From positions 1-34,005 of IMG/VR virus record IMGVR_UViG_3300028394_002199: 34,005 nt of DNA; one strand, written 5' to 3'. Source of the DNA: a virus. Of the stretch, positions 12,790 to 33,105 are shown in pieces. A program made the translations under genes and the position numbers. The notes below the pieces were generated by a model. It was not told where the DNA came from. It was given only the letters and a program-made list of their open reading frames with translations, and did not search any database. Every line of letters begins with the position of its first letter. Position 1 is the first letter of the stretch.

Positions 12790-13173
12790 TTAGACCCCGT
12801 ATTTGTTTCTTTTTGGCTTAGCCACAGGACTGGTAACATTAACATTTGTTTCTGTACTACGATTACTAGCGATTCGTGAAGCTTTAACGCCCATTAGCTT
12901 GTCTGCAAGTCGAATAGTTTCTTCATCGTCTGGAGAAAATGTTACCAATGACAGGTTTTCTGCCCAAGCACTTTCTTGATCAAAATCTATATCGTGATCC
13001 TTGTTAGCACGTGACGCGGCCAACGCCATTCCGTAGCGGTATTGCATGTAAGGATCGGTATTTCGCAAGTCTCGTTGTACAAAAGCACCAGGTAAACTGT
13101 TAGATACTTGTGCATCTACTTTGCCAAATGTGCCGTGTAATTTAGTTTCGGGTAGGAATTCTTTTGCTCTCAT
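12790..13173 (-). CDS. Small tagged virion-type protein
   Basis: 127 residues, no known domain. The N terminus MRAKEFLPET carries an L-P-E site at residues 7-9 and is nearly identical over the first seven residues to the GH19 protein's start. The middle (LPGAFVQRDLRNTDPYMQYR, YGMALAAS) recalls an uncharacterised T4-like cyanophage family. The tail is basic (AKPKRNKYGV). The start overlaps the epimerase stop (ATGA), and a late promoter at 13180-13187 inside the epimerase gene gives it a second, leaderless transcript. Confidence 0.7.
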   Translation of the reverse strand: MRAKEFLPETKLHGTFGKVDAQVSNSLPGAFVQRDLRNTDPYMQYRYGMALAASRANKDHDIDFDQESAWAENLSLVTFSPDDEETIRLADKLMGVKASRIASNRSTETNVNVTSPVAKPKRNKYGV

Positions 13174-13994
13174 AATTTATATTTATCAAGCCATTCCTCC
13201 AAAGTGATCCAACGCTGGGTTCCTAAGCTGTCTTCTAGCTTAGATGTGTCTGCACAAGTGTATGTTTGATAGCTGGATTTGAGAATTTCAGGCATTTCTA
13301 TGTATTCTATGGAAGAATCATACTTTCTACTGATTAAATCTGCAACATGTTGAAAACTAATAGCTTTACCAGTTCCAATGTTCCATACACCAGAATCTTT
13401 GACACGTTTGATATATTCTATGTGTACCCTACAGATATCCTCAACAGCAATAAAATCACGTAGGTAATTATCACTGTTGTGAAATAGTTTAATCTTACCA
13501 GACTCTGCTTGCGTACTGAATTGGCTTACAGGACTGCCTTGATTACCTTTGTGTTCTTCTTGGTTGCCGTACACATTAAAATATCGGAAACCTTGTACTA
13601 TATTGCCGCCTTGGTGTTGCTTGTGATAATATTCACACAGGTACTTGCTCCATGCGTATGGCGTACGGGGATCTGGCATTGCTGTTTCTTTAAAGTCTGT
13701 GCCAAATCCGTAAACACTTGCACTACTGCTGTATTGAAAATTAACGCCGTATGTTTTACAAGCATTGAACAACTGTCTAGTAAAGTCTACATTTTGTCGC
13801 ATTACTTTATCTAAATCGCGTTCTGTTGTACTGCTGATTGCACCTATATGTATTACCCAATCTTGTTCCATTACACTGGGCATGTTGCTGTCACCCCATT
13901 CATATAGATCCACACTCCAGTCTGTGTTGTCGTAGATGTACTGCACTAAATTTTGTCCTATGAATCCTTTGTAACCAGTTACCAATACTCTCAT
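13170..13994 (-). CDS. NAD-dependent sugar epimerase, HldD-like (copy 1)
   Basis: 274 residues, short-chain dehydrogenase fold. NAD-binding TGYKGFIGQN at the N terminus, DWVIHIGAIS, catalytic SSSASVYG and the Tyr-x3-Lys motif YAWSKY, then GFRYFNVYGNQEEHKGNQGS, which is characteristic of ADP-glycero-manno-heptose 6-epimerase (HldD/RfaD). Substrate specificity is inferred from this block and from the neighbouring heptose kinase and nucleotidyltransferase. Good ribosome site GGAGGAAATCAA before the ATG; 4-nt overlap with the kinase stop. It has a paralogue at 15502-16326. Confidence 0.85.
   Translation of the reverse strand: MRVLVTGYKGFIGQNLVQYIYDNTDWSVDLYEWGDSNMPSVMEQDWVIHIGAISSTTERDLDKVMRQNVDFTRQLFNACKTYGVNFQYSSSASVYGFGTDFKETAMPDPRTPYAWSKYLCEYYHKQHQGGNIVQGFRYFNVYGNQEEHKGNQGSPVSQFSTQAESGKIKLFHNSDNYLRDFIAVEDICRVHIEYIKRVKDSGVWNIGTGKAISFQHVADLISRKYDSSIEYIEMPEILKSSYQTYTCADTSKLEDSLGTQRWITLEEWLDKYKL
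13180..13187 (-). promoter_or_regulatory. T4-type late promoter (GATAAATA) inside the epimerase 3' end
   Basis: Leftward GATAAATA, then TAAATT (6 nt), then the ATG at 13173. It separates transcription of the tagged protein and the two lysozymes from the upstream heptose cassette. Confidence 0.65.
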
Positions 13995-15101: not shown

Positions 15102-15512
15102 TTATGTCTTTCGTTTACGATTAGTTCGTTTGACAGCTGGCGCAGTGCTTGCTGGTTTGGCTTGACTATCACCGGGCATCACTCGGTAGTTGTCTTCCAC
15201 ACTGTCAGGAGTACTGACTTCAATTATGATACCTTGTTTGATACAGATCAACTGATGCGGCTCCAGTGGAAAGTTTCTCCAAGTATCACCTTCATTAAGT
15301 ATCTTGCTGTGCATACTTGCATCTTTGGTATCGATATACTTTACTTCAAACTGGCCTTCTAACACAAACCAAGTTTCGTCTTTCTCATCATGAAAGTGCA
15401 TACTGAACTTTGCACCTTGTTTAAAGTACATGAGTTTACCGCAATATAAATCGTTGGTGGCAAATATCAGTTCGCCGCCCCATCCTTTTTCAACTTGTCC
15501 TTCAAGTCTCAT
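15102..15512 (-). CDS. Cupin-domain protein (sugar-isomerase or sugar-binding type)
   Basis: 136 residues. A single cupin barrel: FSMHFHDEKDETWFVLEGQF gives the metal-binding HxH...E set and PLEPHQL the last His. This is like the C-terminal cupin of type II mannose-6-phosphate isomerase/GDP-mannose pyrophosphorylase. The C-terminal 30 residues are a basic, disordered tail (RTNRKRKT). Position inside the heptose cassette suggests a sugar-nucleotide or sugar-phosphate step, possibly replacing the missing isomerase (GmhA), but that is a guess. It overlaps the copy-2 epimerase by 11 nt. Confidence 0.7.
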   Translation of the reverse strand: MRLEGQVEKGWGGELIFATNDLYCGKLMYFKQGAKFSMHFHDEKDETWFVLEGQFEVKYIDTKDASMHSKILNEGDTWRNFPLEPHQLICIKQGIIIEVSTPDSVEDNYRVMPGDSQAKPASTAPAVKRTNRKRKT

Positions 15513-16326
15513 AATGTAACCACTCGAATACGTTTAACCATTTTCTTTTTCCTATTGTCTCTTTTAGTTTAGTAAGATCTGCTTGCGTCTTCCAACGCAT
15601 AGACTTGGCATACTCAGCACTTACAGGTTCAAATTCAATAGAGACCTTTTCCTGCTCTGCTATTTCTTCCGCAATATCTAAGAAACTGTGTGACAGTCCA
15701 GTACCCACATTCCATATGCCCGAACCATTCACTGTTTTTATAAAATCTATCTGTAGTCGACATACATCTCCTACCCATGTCCAATCACGTTTTACTGTTT
15801 CGGCATTTTCCCAAACTGTGATCTTGCCTTCCTTACGAGCTTGTTCTCTCCATTTGTGTATAACATTGGACCGCTTGTCACGCAGGTGCATGTACTTGCC
15901 GTACACATTGAAGTATCTAAATCCCTGCACCATCACATGTTGCTCTTGTTGGAACACCCAACGATCAAATAGATACTTGCTCCATGCGTAAGGTGTATCA
16001 GGTTTGCACGGAGCATACTCGCTGAAGTCTTTGGTGTCACCGTACACACTACTTGAACTGGCATATTGCAAGTGTACGCCATGTCTATTACATTCTTCAA
16101 ACAGCCATTGACTAAACTCATAATTTTGTATCATGACTGCATCGATATCCTTGGCAGTCATGTCGGCTATGGCACCCAAATGTATGACCCAGTCATACTC
16201 AATTACATTTGGTTTGCTTTTTGGATCCCAGTCCCATCCTTCAACGTGCCATCCTTCTTCAGCATGGCACCAGTCCATCATGTTTCGGCCAATGAACCCT
16301 TTATAGCCCGTTATCAAAATCTTCAT
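15502..16326 (-). CDS. NAD-dependent sugar epimerase, HldD-like (copy 2)
   Basis: 274 residues, the same length as copy 1 and clearly paralogous: TGYKGFIGRN, DWVIHLGAIADMT, ASSSSVYGD, YAWSKYLFD (Tyr-x3-Lys), GFRYFNVYGKYMHLRDKRSN, and SGIWNVGTGLS. The segment after FNVYG differs from copy 1, so the two may act on different sugars. It is the first gene of the leftward heptose operon, with an AATAAATA late promoter (16347-16354), a 20-nt leader and an AAAGGG ribosome site. Confidence 0.85.
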   Translation of the reverse strand: MKILITGYKGFIGRNMMDWCHAEEGWHVEGWDWDPKSKPNVIEYDWVIHLGAIADMTAKDIDAVMIQNYEFSQWLFEECNRHGVHLQYASSSSVYGDTKDFSEYAPCKPDTPYAWSKYLFDRWVFQQEQHVMVQGFRYFNVYGKYMHLRDKRSNVIHKWREQARKEGKITVWENAETVKRDWTWVGDVCRLQIDFIKTVNGSGIWNVGTGLSHSFLDIAEEIAEQEKVSIEFEPVSAEYAKSMRWKTQADLTKLKETIGKRKWLNVFEWLHYET

Positions 16327-30429: not shown

Positions 30430-30657
30430 GTGACTAAGTTCATAACAGTTATCGTAACAGTGTGCCAATTGACAGGATGTGCGGCATACACAGTGGCCAA
30501 TACTGTCACTTACATAGCAACGGATAAGAGCATAATGGATCATGGGTCTAGCACACTGGTTTCGGCCGATTGTGATGCAGTTCGCGTGGTTGAAAAGGGC
30601 ACTTATTATTGTGAAGTTCGTGATGTCAGCACCACATACAACCGTAATGTGTTCTAA
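30430..30657 (+). CDS. Small lipoprotein (GTG start)
   Basis: 75 residues. Lipoprotein signal MTKFITVIVTVCQLTGC with lipobox LTGC and lipidation Cys17. The mature part has two more Cys (SADCDAVRVV, YYCEVRD) that may pair. The GTG is 3 nt after the upstream stop, suggesting coupling. No family recognised; an envelope role early in infection (for example exclusion or surface change) is possible but unproven. Confidence 0.65.
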   Translation: MTKFITVIVTVCQLTGCAAYTVANTVTYIATDKSIMDHGSSTLVSADCDAVRVVEKGTYYCEVRDVSTTYNRNVF

Positions 30658-30782
30658 TGAGTACAGCTAGCGGATGGATGGTGTTGGTGTTGGAGGATGA
30701 GTTATACTATGCGTTGGCTGTGCTGTTTGTATGCACTTGCTCATTTGGCGTGGGCATGTTGGTATCACTGATCATATACTAG
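30657..30782 (+). CDS. Small single-span membrane protein
   Basis: 41 residues, MSTASGWMVLVLEDELYYAL followed by a hydrophobic span (AVLFVCTCSFGVGMLVSLII). The start overlaps the lipoprotein stop by 1 nt (TAATG). Its stop codon runs into the first copy of the 14-bp repeat. Confidence 0.5.
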   Translation: MSTASGWMVLVLEDELYYALAVLFVCTCSFGVGMLVSLIIY

Positions 30783-31128
30783 ACCCCGCTGTGAACAGTT
30801 ACAAGATATAGTCTAATTTGGGTCGGGGCACTAATAGTGTGTCTGCCAACAACGCTAGACTGAGTCGGTCTTCCCGTATGAGAAAGCGTATGCCCAGGGG
30901 CAGTGCTGAGTATGAGTAAGCACAATAGCCCAATTGATCCATGACATCTGGATCTGTGGTGTATGAGTCATAACAAAGCAAGCGCATAGTGTATATAGCA
31001 AAAGACCCCGCTGTGACTAGTTGGGTTTCCAGTGTATATGCACTGTGTACACAATGAACGCTTCGCTTGGCCGGATTCATATGAGTACACATGTGTACGC
31101 ACACTATGCACAAAAGACCCCGCTGTGA
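30781..31128. repeat. Three direct copies of AGACCCCGCTGTGA in a mostly non-coding region
   Basis: Copies at 30781-30794, 31003-31016 and 31115-31128, the last two extended to AAAAGACCCCGCTGTGA (31000-31016, 31112-31128). Spacing is 222 and 112 bp. Between them are dyads: a perfect palindrome GTACACATGTGTAC (31085-31098), TGTGTACACA (31044-31053) and a hairpin CAGTG-TATATG-CACTG (31030-31045). Could be regulator-binding sites, middle-promoter boxes or iterons. Confidence 0.7.
30799..30987 (-). CDS. Possible leftward small protein between repeats
   Basis: 62 residues from the ATG at 30987: MRLLCYDSYTTDPDVMDQLG, YCAYSYSALPLGIRFLIRED, RLSLALLADTLLVPRPKLDY. The sequence is protein-like with no low-complexity runs. 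Just upstream on this strand lie the second repeat copy and a TATATA 4 nt before the ATG. No ribosome site. The frame is open further upstream (to 31113), but that extension crosses a repeat and is not credible. Confidence 0.4.
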   Translation of the reverse strand: MRLLCYDSYTTDPDVMDQLGYCAYSYSALPLGIRFLIREDRLSLALLADTLLVPRPKLDYIL

Positions 31129-31458
31129 GGTATAGTGATTATGGGGATTTTGTGTGGGAAATGTGAGTAACCATTAAAACTATGCCTCTCTGCCCCACTC
31201 GCAACCGATTTTTTCTACCCTATAGCCACGGTTTGCCCTCTTGAATATGACTCATAATCCAGAATCTGTCACACTTTATCACACAATTCAACACTTTTCT
31301 GCACTTTTCTAGACCAGCTCCCTCACTGTAGATGTCTATACGCAAGTTGGTGGCAGTCTACTCACACTAGTTTGACTATATCACTATACTATATACAGTC
31401 TAGTACGGTGAAAGATAGTGTTCACTGTTAAATACTATGTCAAGACCGGAGGTGTACA
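31129..31458. other. Non-coding stretch
   Basis: No credible reading frame on either strand. It holds pyrimidine-rich sequence with recurring CACTTTT/CACAC words (31270-31310), an AT-rich imperfect dyad GACTATAT...ATACAGTC (about 31374-31400) and a weak late-like GTTAAATA (31427-31434) before the ribosome site GGAGGT of the 31459 gene. Confidence 0.5.
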
Positions 31459-31719
31459 ATGGCAAGAGGTATAGCACAAATACGTTTTCCTACTCATCAA
31501 GCGTATATAAGTCAAACTGAAGATGGGTTAGTATGCTTTAAACACAATGACAGATCATGTGATATGGAAGTATTCCCACGAGATAATAACATAGCGGCTA
31601 GTGACTATCTACTAGAGCCCCTAAAGAACTATGAATATCACATAGCATGGAGTGAGGAATCAGAGATGGCAAAGGAACTGTGGACTCCTATTGTGTGTAG
31701 GCGGTCCAATCAGATTTAA
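31459..31719 (+). CDS. Small phage protein
   Basis: 86 residues: MARGIAQIRFPTHQAYISQT, DGLVCFKHNDRSCDMEVFPR, YLLEPLKNYEYHIAWSEESE. Strong ribosome site GGAGGT 5 nt before the ATG. Soluble, mixed fold, no recognised family. Followed by a terminator, so it is a single-gene unit. Confidence 0.65.
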   Translation: MARGIAQIRFPTHQAYISQTEDGLVCFKHNDRSCDMEVFPRDNNIAASDYLLEPLKNYEYHIAWSEESEMAKELWTPIVCRRSNQI

Positions 31720-31749: not shown

Positions 31750-31783
31750 AAAACCCGCATTGTCAAGCGGGTTTTCTTTTTTG
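31750..31783 (+). terminator. Rho-independent terminator
   Basis: AAAACCCGC-ATTGTCAA-GCGGGTTTT followed by CTTTTTT. Ends the 31459-31719 unit. Confidence 0.85.
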
Positions 31784-31816: not shown

Positions 31817-31893
31817 AAAAAGGCTAGTTAGTGCCAACTAACTTAATACCTTTCGCCCGCAGTCGCCGTCCACCCCCACTATGTTCGAACGAT
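31817..31893 (-). ncRNA. Candidate small RNA with perfect sigma-70 promoter
   Basis: A leftward consensus promoter (31900-31928) has no reading frame of useful length behind it. About 50 nt into the transcript is the hairpin AGTTAGT-TGGC-ACTAACT, followed by AGCC and five Ts (31817-31843), a terminator-like end. The expected RNA is about 77 nt, starting near 31893 and including the palindrome GTTCGAAC and the run GTGGGGGTGGACGGCGACTG. A short GTG peptide cannot be excluded. No known RNA family matches by eye. Confidence 0.4.
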
Positions 31894-31899
31894 GCTTAT

Positions 31900-31928
31900 A
31901 TTATACGTCTTTTAGACCATGCTGTCAA
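31900..31928 (-). promoter_or_regulatory. Perfect consensus sigma-70 promoter (leftward)
   Basis: TTGACA (31923-31928), 17 bp, TATAAT (31900-31905), twelve of twelve bases. Divergent from 31984-32012. Confidence 0.85.
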
Positions 31929-31964: not shown

Positions 31965-31983
31965 GCGAGTGCGGATCTTTTGG

Positions 31984-32012
31984 TTGACTGGGAACTGGAT
32001 CTGCGCTATAAT
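31984..32012 (+). promoter_or_regulatory. Sigma-70 early promoter, leaderless arrangement
   Basis: TTGACT (31984-31989), 17 bp, TATAAT (32007-32012), then AACACT and the ATG of the GIY-YIG gene at 32019. Confidence 0.85.
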
Positions 32013-32018
32013 AACACT

Positions 32019-32348
32019 ATGACGACACGCAGAACAGCCCGCAAAGACTCCAACTACATCATCTACGAAGCCGTTTCGGAGCGTGGAGAGAACTACATTG
32101 GCTTGACCCGCAAGGGGGATGTCACAGTAGCCCGAGCCGTTAAGGAACGGTGGCGCAAGCATCTCAGCAGAGCCCGTAACGAAAACAGACTGTGGGCACT
32201 GTACATCTACTTGAAGTCGGGTGGCTTGGACATGGCTTGGGAGCATAGAGTCATCACTGTGATTAGGGGTCGTGCTGAGGCTTATGCATACGAACGATCT
32301 TTAGTCAAAGAGCTTGGCCCTACGCTGAATGATCAGTACTGTGGTTGA
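32019..32348 (+). CDS. GIY-YIG nuclease-like protein
   Basis: 109 residues from the ATG at 32019; an upstream in-frame start (31980) lies inside the promoter and is rejected. Motifs fit a minimal GIY-YIG domain: NYIIYEAVSERGENYIGLTR (the two YI[YG] strands), KERWRKHLSRARNENRLWAL with the catalytic Arg and His region, and YERSLVKELGPTLNDQYCG. It may be a free-standing homing or host-DNA-degrading nuclease. The promoter predicts an mRNA starting on the ATG. Confidence 0.75.
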   Translation: MTTRRTARKDSNYIIYEAVSERGENYIGLTRKGDVTVARAVKERWRKHLSRARNENRLWALYIYLKSGGLDMAWEHRVITVIRGRAEAYAYERSLVKELGPTLNDQYCG

Positions 32349-32403: not shown

Positions 32404-33105
32404 ATGTTCAAACTATTAAGTACCGCAAACCCCAAAATCCAAAAGGGCACCAAGCTGGGCTATCTCAGCTTTATCCTACACCTTGCACCTGCTGACTTGA
32501 GCGGACGTGAGACTTGCCCAAAACGAACGGTGGGTTGTACTGCCGCTTGCCTCAACACTGCCGGACGTGGTGGCATGTTCAAACGTGGTGAGAACACCAA
32601 CATGATCCAAAAGGCACGTATCCGCAAGACACAATACTTCTTCAATGCTCGCCAGGACTTCATGCTGGACTTGAAGAAGGACATTGAGAAGGCAGTTAAG
32701 ATGGCTGGCAAGCTGGGTTTGACGCCGGTGTTTCGTTTGAATGGTACGAGCGATTTGAGCTGGGAGAAATACGATATGCTCCCAGGGCTCAATGTATTTG
32801 AGTGCTTCCCTACTGTACAGTTCTACGACTACACCAAGGTTCTGGGACGCAAGACTAAGGGCATTGCCAACTACCACTTGACGTTCAGCAAGGCAGACGG
32901 CAATGACGCTGATGTGGCAGAAGCATTAATGCAGGGTATGTCGGTGGTTGCTGTCTACGATGCTATCCCAGCGGGTGTTCCGTCAGCTGATGAAACAGAC
33001 TTGCGCTTCTTAGACCCTAAGGGCATTATGCTTGGTTTGAAGGCCAAGGGTCGTGCTAAGAAGGACTACAGTGGATTTGTAATCCGGTTGACAGAGACAG
33101 CGTAA
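32404..33105 (+). CDS. Gp88-like phage protein
   Basis: 233 residues. The N terminus KLGYLSFILHLAPADLSGRE then CPKRTVGCTAACLNTAGRGG is the signature of the phage Gp88 family (CP...GC...ACLNTAGRG). Cys residues there may bind metal. The rest includes FRLNGTSDLSWEKYDMLPGL and VFECFPTVQFYDYTKVL, alternating like a TIM-barrel-type fold. Found in phages of many hosts; biochemical role unknown. Strong early promoter and ribosome site AAAGGAG. Confidence 0.8.
   Translation: MFKLLSTANPKIQKGTKLGYLSFILHLAPADLSGRETCPKRTVGCTAACLNTAGRGGMFKRGENTNMIQKARIRKTQYFFNARQDFMLDLKKDIEKAVKMAGKLGLTPVFRLNGTSDLSWEKYDMLPGLNVFECFPTVQFYDYTKVLGRKTKGIANYHLTFSKADGNDADVAEALMQGMSVVAVYDAIPAGVPSADETDLRFLDPKGIMLGLKAKGRAKKDYSGFVIRLTETA

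Follow-up and report, generated by a model that had tools for sequence, protein, structure and literature searches.

Oriented repeat boxes mark a candidate origin-like control locus in uncultured large phages

The window analysed here is a virus fragment of 34,005 bases, taken over its full length. Between positions 30657 and 32348 it carries three copies of a short box together with small genes and several non-coding elements, listed below by coordinates, strand and nature.

30657..30782, + strand: membrane ORF, single-helix-like, 41 aa; its TAG stop overlaps box copy 1, and its counterparts in L004 and L061 end just 5′ of the box
30781..30794, + strand: box copy 1 (AGACCCCGCTGTGA), invariant in relatives
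30799..30987, − strand: gene B, 62 aa, with copy 1 on one side and copy 2 on the other; 28 of 75 loci have a homologue
31003..31016, + strand: box copy 2, 15 bp upstream of the gene B ATG, with TATATAC in between
31115..31128, + strand: box copy 3, invariant in relatives
31165..31198, + strand: conserved block GAGTAACCATTAAAACTATGCCTCTCTGCCCCAC (starting GAGTAACCATTAAAACTATGCC...), from a 30-locus alignment
31269..31308, + strand: four tandem 10-bp repeats (CACACTTT/CACACAATT/CACTTTT type), from the alignment, with a unit-length indel in L320
31355..31404, no strand: least stable 50 bp, a possible unwinding element, from a stability scan
31427..31438, + strand: T4-late-promoter-like GTTAAATACTAT upstream of gene C, from the sequence
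31459..31719, + strand: gene C, 86 aa, from homology and predicted structure
31750..31775, + strand: intrinsic terminator 3′ of gene C, from the sequence
31850..31928, − strand: conserved leftward sigma-70-type promoter (TTGACA-17-TATAAT, 31928-31900) and conserved leader, in 16 of 58 loci
31980..32348, + strand: last gene of the module, GIY-YIG nuclease-like, with a tentative start codon (Pfam PF01541, E 5.8e-5)

The box AGACCCCGCTGTGA is present in exact form at 30781-30794, 31003-31016 and 31115-31128, always on the + strand, with starts 222 and 112 bp apart; copies 2 and 3 have 17 bp in common (AAAAGACCCCGCTGTGA). This agrees with the initial annotation, which had described three exact copies at these spacings as GC-rich boxes in AT-richer surroundings. 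No further exact copy was found in the 34,005 bp on either strand, and AGACCCCGCTGTGA is the sole 14-mer with at least three occurrences in the window. None of 200 first-order Markov simulations placed a 14-mer three times within 400 bp. The three copies are real and far beyond chance.

The nearest long relative of the window, a record of 356,312 bases (G001), matches nearly all of it in its 316-355 kb region at about 74-95% identity. Genes of G001 include a contractile tail sheath and a family B DNA polymerase, the latter closest in the phage collection (43-49% identity) to those of Sinorhizobium phage Phosso, Agrobacterium phage Atu_ph07, Pectobacterium phage CBB, Escherichia phage 121Q and Cronobacter phage GAP32. 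We take this polymerase group to be ‘RaK2-like’, a label that rests here on one gene. Further G001 products are an HSP70 of full length, an ATPase resembling ClpB/ClpA and the large subunit of ribonucleotide reductase (L150:11497-13425, L144:12685-14961 and L151:2723-5044). In the window itself, a GP88-family protein (PF17338) is encoded at 32404-33105 (+), with best phage matches in Stenotrophomonas and Xanthomonas jumbo phages and many in mycobacteriophages; two genes about 1.5 kb apart, at 13170-13994 and 15502-16326 (both −), match the nucleotide-sugar epimerase family phrog_540.

Scanning of the viral collection with the 14-mer returned 71 stretches, mostly chance matches in coding DNA, the meaningful ones being clustered. 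Scans for two cores gave at least 120 stretches for cores 10-40 bases apart and 101 for cores 41-71 bases apart. The set generally used below comprises 75 loci with at least two AGRCCCCGCTG in 600 bp and a locus GC of at most 0.505, duplicates (over the first 70 bp) being removed. GC-richer loci, where spacings were mostly multiples of three, were excluded as coding repeats. The set retains some likely chance cases (e.g. L198, L256 and L317), and the family exceeds the loci counted. Since some loci are closely related, as are L040/L050, L051/L071, L158/L159 and L320/L328, locus counts are not counts of independent events. For alignments, 33 loci were used at first and 30 in that of the block and array.

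Among 50,697 phage records, neither the last 5 kb of the window nor the G004 locus had a DNA match; a search of 72,556 plasmid records with the G004 locus likewise found none. AGRCCCCGCTG was absent from eight isolates picked for a related GP88 or DNA polymerase gene. In bacterial genomes, the scan for box pairs gave at least 119 rows, none with the module among the matches listed; in one of them, L456, the block 9-mer is present together with a single array word. Our searches of open-access papers brought up no earlier report of such a locus.

The core AGRCCCCGCTG is conserved in uncultured large phages, with 2-5 copies per locus. A profile of 42 boxes gave the conserved word AnAGRCCCCGCTGYG, and no position outside it was conserved at a fixed distance. 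Because these boxes were gathered using the core pattern, only their flanks and the lack of a fixed −10 are free of selection. Copies within one genome tend to have tails in common: TGTGA in all three copies of the window, CTAT in all three of L157, CT or CTG in L110. This would be expected if a protein with a lineage-specific preference reads the boxes, or if copies are homogenised. In a comparison of the window with L004, L007 and L061, all 14 columns were invariant in copy 1 (25-bp flanks, 44% and 56%) and in copy 3 (flanks, 40% and 40%); in copy 2, 86% of columns were invariant, with a conserved left flank, which is the gene B start region, and a right flank at 4%. According to the initial annotation, its reading would be refuted by a 14-mer that occurs nowhere else and is not conserved in related phages; the 14-mer is conserved in relatives, so that this check did not refute it. 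Exact copies number three in G001 and four in G004, in one place each, with two and one single-mismatch look-alikes elsewhere, respectively. By an independent route, a search with gene C alone led to 12 loci, 10 of which carry three or four boxes; among the five loci on contigs new to the analysis, three hold boxes (two of them near-identical) and the two most distant hold none. Box spacings in relatives include 45/45, 36/36, 93 and 63 bp. No helical phasing of the spacing was seen, either in the window or in relatives.

Not all elements first described around the boxes belong to this conserved feature. The perfect dyads at 31085-31098 and 31044-31053 are present, but they lie outside it since only 7% and 20% of their columns, respectively, are invariant in four close relatives. 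Likewise, an AT-rich −10-like string does follow each copy leftward, but at differing distances. The proposed leftward gene at 30799 is real; its conserved form is the 62-aa gene B starting from 30987 and not the 104-aa ORF from 31113.

The position of the boxes relative to gene B was examined in 27 loci (one of 28 without usable start was dropped). These loci were all selected for boxes, while box placement was not: a box lies within 60 nt upstream of the gene B start in 23 of the 27 and within 160 nt in all 27, and a box is found within 60 nt behind the stop codon in 16, as is copy 1 in the window. The distance from the nearest box to the ATG ranges from 3 to 50 nt and exceeds 100 nt in a few loci. 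In most gene-B loci, TATATAC, GTAAATAC or TTAAATA (TAAATA) lies between box and ATG. The upstream placement suggested in the initial annotation thus holds, copy 2 being 15 bp 5′ of the gene B ATG with TATATAC in between. Gene B itself is only 16-27% identical across lineages. More generally, 22 of 49 inter-box gaps (90-400 bp) carry an ATG-initiated ORF filling at least 60% of the gap, compared with 5.4 expected from shuffles. This cargo varies (gene B, membrane ORFs, a zinc-ribbon-like ORF in L010/L036) and is on the minus strand in 18 of 22.

The boxes had also been proposed as the upstream element of leftward middle promoters. A T4 middle promoter has a MotA box upstream of a −10-like string, and the arrangement seen here is similar in that a box precedes such a string. 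In contrast to the T4 promoter, no −10 at fixed distance emerged from the 42-box profile, and a box is also found behind the gene. Several copies have no nearby TATA, and the variable box-to-ATG distance and the copies behind stop codons are likewise at odds with such an element. A rigid leftward promoter was therefore rejected on the basis of the profile.

Beyond the boxes, the conserved block has a fixed placement. In the 51 loci with 600 bp on both sides, it lies to the right of the boxes and in forward orientation in 26, and in none in each of the other three placements. The same was observed with the array word (22 of 51 right and forward, 0 of 51 in each other placement). Boxes point towards the block wherever the block is present. 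In the window, the array follows the block about 92 bp further on; L320 has one array unit fewer, with exactly 10 bp missing. No covarying base pair was found in the 30-sequence alignment of block and array (which includes neither boxes nor leader), so that block and array most likely act as DNA. The locus L024, at 952-1590, carries four boxes and a CACACTTT-type array that is inverted relative to them, unlike all other loci; it has the GIY-YIG gene and is without block, gene B and gene C. To the right of the array, several relatives (L190, L204, L186 and others; alignment A3 columns 186-212) carry GTGATCTAGATCACA, of which the window has a remnant; this motif resembles what we take to be a CRP/FNR-type consensus.

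The stretch at 31355-31404, about 230 bp from the nearest box, is easily melted: in the window, just 1.6% of 50-bp stretches have lower stability. Of 24 loci, 11 have the 50 bp of lowest stability within the surrounding 1.6 kb in this interval between array and gene C (2.8 expected), a weak argument because intergenic, promoter-bearing DNA is AT-rich anyway. A late-promoter-like motif is present near the gene C start in 11 of 33 loci and near the gene B start in 9 of 28. The predicted structure of the gene C product (pLDDT 72) gave no PDB match better than E 1.1, and no match to this protein was found in the phage collection. The leftward promoter in the window is a perfect TTGACA-17-TATAAT, followed by a strongly conserved leader (GTTCGAACATAGTGGGGGTGGACGGCGA...); a strict pattern detects both in 16 of 58 loci. 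The RNA starting there may be a small RNA, a primer, or a leader that contains a GTG micro-ORF. Where the sequence extends 1.8 kb or more to the right (56 loci), a GIY-YIG homologue is present in 30, always on the + strand.

In part of the family, the right side of the locus carries clustered DnaA boxes. In the 33 block-bearing loci, the exact sequence TTATCCACA occurs 51 times in the 16.5 kb located +500 to +1000 to the right of the last box, against 9 times in the other 331.7 kb; for 300 permuted 9-mers used as control, the mean was 0.10 and the maximum 3. At least one DnaA box in this interval is found in 13 of the 33 loci, the other 20, window included, having none. Over the 75 loci, 20 contain two or more exact DnaA boxes, 82 in total (near-duplicate L300 left out). 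Neighbouring DnaA boxes are separated by a 2-3 bp gap in 21 of 62 pairs, and all 21 are in the same orientation. In several complete or long records, the cluster at the locus is the main one: G004 has 6 of the 7 exact DnaA boxes of its 383 kb within 130 bp there; the corresponding fractions are 5 of 9 in G008, 5 of 6 in G020, 5 of 6 in G018 and 3 of 10 in G012. In G008 the DnaA cluster is at 11.4-11.5 kb and the boxes at 10.6-10.8 kb. Ten other complete or long records compared have no DnaA cluster at the locus, and five isolate jumbo phage records showed scattered TTATCCACA alone (6, 2, 2, 6 and 0). A viral contig outside the 75 loci (L264:4499-4592) carries four closely packed double DnaA boxes. 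Because the window, G001 and close relatives have no DnaA boxes at the locus, the DnaA argument, which is the strongest one, applies to the window by homology only. These clusters could instead serve titration or gene regulation.

Exact TTATCCACA and the many same-orientation pairs 2-3 bp apart recall DnaA/oriC double-box origins, this being the form that DnaA binds in E. coli, with a reported preference for pairs 2 or 3 bp apart (PMC11317965). Unlike in those origins, only some members of the clade carry the boxes, the window not being among them, and in these phages their function is a candidate one, put forward from sequence.

The box is also found dispersed in other large phages (loci L486-L506): 12 copies in G009 (over 67-340 kb), 8 in G023, 12 in G024 and 6 in G025, mostly in short intergenic gaps and some inside ORFs. 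Every box has the same orientation in G023, G024 and G025; G009 has nine one way, then three the other. Genes beside the boxes run both ways in G023 and G024, which are related to each other, whereas box orientation follows the genes in most cases in G009. No block was found near the dispersed boxes in the stretches examined of these four phages. These copies show that the box also exists apart from the origin-like module, which any complete explanation has to accommodate; a protein binding both at one main cluster and at outlying sites would do this.

Several explanations of the boxes were weighed against these observations. They could serve leftward promoters, above all the gene B promoter, as operators or activator sites; the copy behind the stop would then act as a roadblock, and the DnaA boxes and array would belong to something next door. 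The placement at gene B, the TATATAC/TAAATA strings before its ATG and the intergenic positions of dispersed boxes speak for such sites, which we regard as a strong rival reading, though one less likely than not. The loose distance to the start, with no fixed −10, does not, nor do L040 and L051, in which three boxes spaced by exactly 45 bp lie over 200 bp upstream; boxes of G023 (8) and G024 (12) are one-way though neighbouring genes run both ways, and the fixed orientation to block, array and DnaA boxes is left unexplained. The operator and stoperator sites of cluster A mycobacteriophages are similarly asymmetric sites of 11-14 bp near promoters and in short intergenic gaps (PMC9283540). However, L5 has more than twenty sites per genome with an orientation that follows transcription; here there are three or four in one place (G001, G004), and box orientation in G023 and G024 is independent of genes. 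The ORF-filled gaps, with their differing and mainly minus-strand cargo, would fit boxes that bracket exchangeable small genes as recombination borders. Mobile regulatory cassettes have reportedly been proposed for T4-type phages. Such punctuation is improbable here, since an 11-bp core invariant across lineages whose gene B is 16-27% identical asks for a binding function, and tandem copies at 36- and 45-bp steps bracket nothing. Box placement at gene B and the ORF-filled gaps nevertheless keep both the operator and the cassette role alive.

A polar DNA signal, Chi-like or directing segregation or packaging, with its orientation set by the genome and not by genes, would account for the one-way boxes of G023, G024 and G025, the nine-then-three arrangement of G009 and the flanking genes of G023 and G024 running both ways. 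The copy number is far too low for Chi or FtsK-type signals, G001 and G004 have a single locus, several dispersed copies are intragenic and G023 and G024 are related, which makes this reading very unlikely. Even less probable is a structured RNA or half of a terminator: read leftward, one copy has the potential for a 5-bp stem ahead of a T-run (31131-31117), and a few relatives have the box inside a longer inverted repeat, but the other window copies are without partner arm, the block/array alignment (which leaves the boxes out) has no conserved pair and no Rfam match reached the gathering score. Finally, most single 14-mer matches in the viral collection and all those inspected in the genome collection are chance, yet for the clustered copies no support for chance was found; simulations never produced them, and their conservation refutes this explanation, to which we give practically no weight.

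We consider that the copies are iteron- or operator-like sites of a putative protein at an origin-like control locus, a reading drawn from sequence comparison that we hold at slightly less than even confidence. The alternative offered in the initial annotation, iterons or operator sites, fits best, and the copies are conserved sites. A putative sequence-specific protein would bind the direct-repeat boxes through the core AGRCCCCGCTG and a lineage-specific tail and, because boxes also lie at the gene B promoter, could regulate gene B once bound. DNA opening would take place in the easily melted interval that separates the 10-bp array from gene C. Host DnaA, bound in some members of the clade to the paired DnaA boxes on the right, may help loading, and the region may be primed or opened by a leftward transcript from 31928-31900. 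This function would have been kept in the lineage of the window, which has no DnaA boxes. The repeats with their conservation, orientation and neighbours, the DnaA-box clusters of relatives, the weakly paired stretch and the promoter consensus are observations, whereas protein binding, a replication start at this place, the use of DnaA and a retained function in the lineage of the window are inferences. Origin and operator readings are compatible, since the iterons of plasmid origins often sit at a promoter.

Box spacing, flat skew and dispersed copies count against a pure origin role. GC skew, suggested in the initial annotation as a check for an origin, gave no support: neither G001 nor G004 has a flip in third-codon-position skew at the locus, nor does the cumulative skew turn there. 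Phage genomes need not show such a turn at their origin. No initiator gene was recognised among the 20 window and about 16 G001 proteins scanned, and genes B and C are too small.

Iteron origins (plasmids P1, F, RK2 and R6K, and phage lambda) resemble the locus in their asymmetric direct repeats in one orientation (three of three copies on + here, and likewise in relatives), a readily melting stretch that includes short tandem repeats, DnaA boxes (here in some members of the family) and repeats near the promoter of a small gene; the features of P1, RK2, R6K and lambda are those given in PMC5043065. In contrast, the present boxes are short (11-14 bp), few and out of helical phase, while plasmid iterons are generally in phase (PMC5043065). 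No initiator is recognised, DnaA boxes are 500-1000 bp off and absent from the window, and the record is a jumbo-type phage genome and not a plasmid.

Taken a step further, the RaK2-like jumbo phage clade might start replication at one hybrid origin that combines phage-specific boxes with an unwinding element and a 10-bp phased array. Many members would supplement it with double boxes that recruit host DnaA; others, among them the lineage of the window, would have dropped host DnaA and rely on the phage's own box-binding protein. We put this forward tentatively, as a scheme that is rather unlikely to be correct as a whole.

For jumbo phages of the T4/RaK2 kind, little is known about the site and mode of replication initiation. 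The present analysis points to a single recognisable, oriented locus common to dozens of uncultured large phages. If it is an origin, it would provide one that can be tested, a metagenome marker for it and a case of gained or lost dependence on a host initiator. If the boxes are only operators, they would still constitute a new conserved regulatory site with a putative binding protein.
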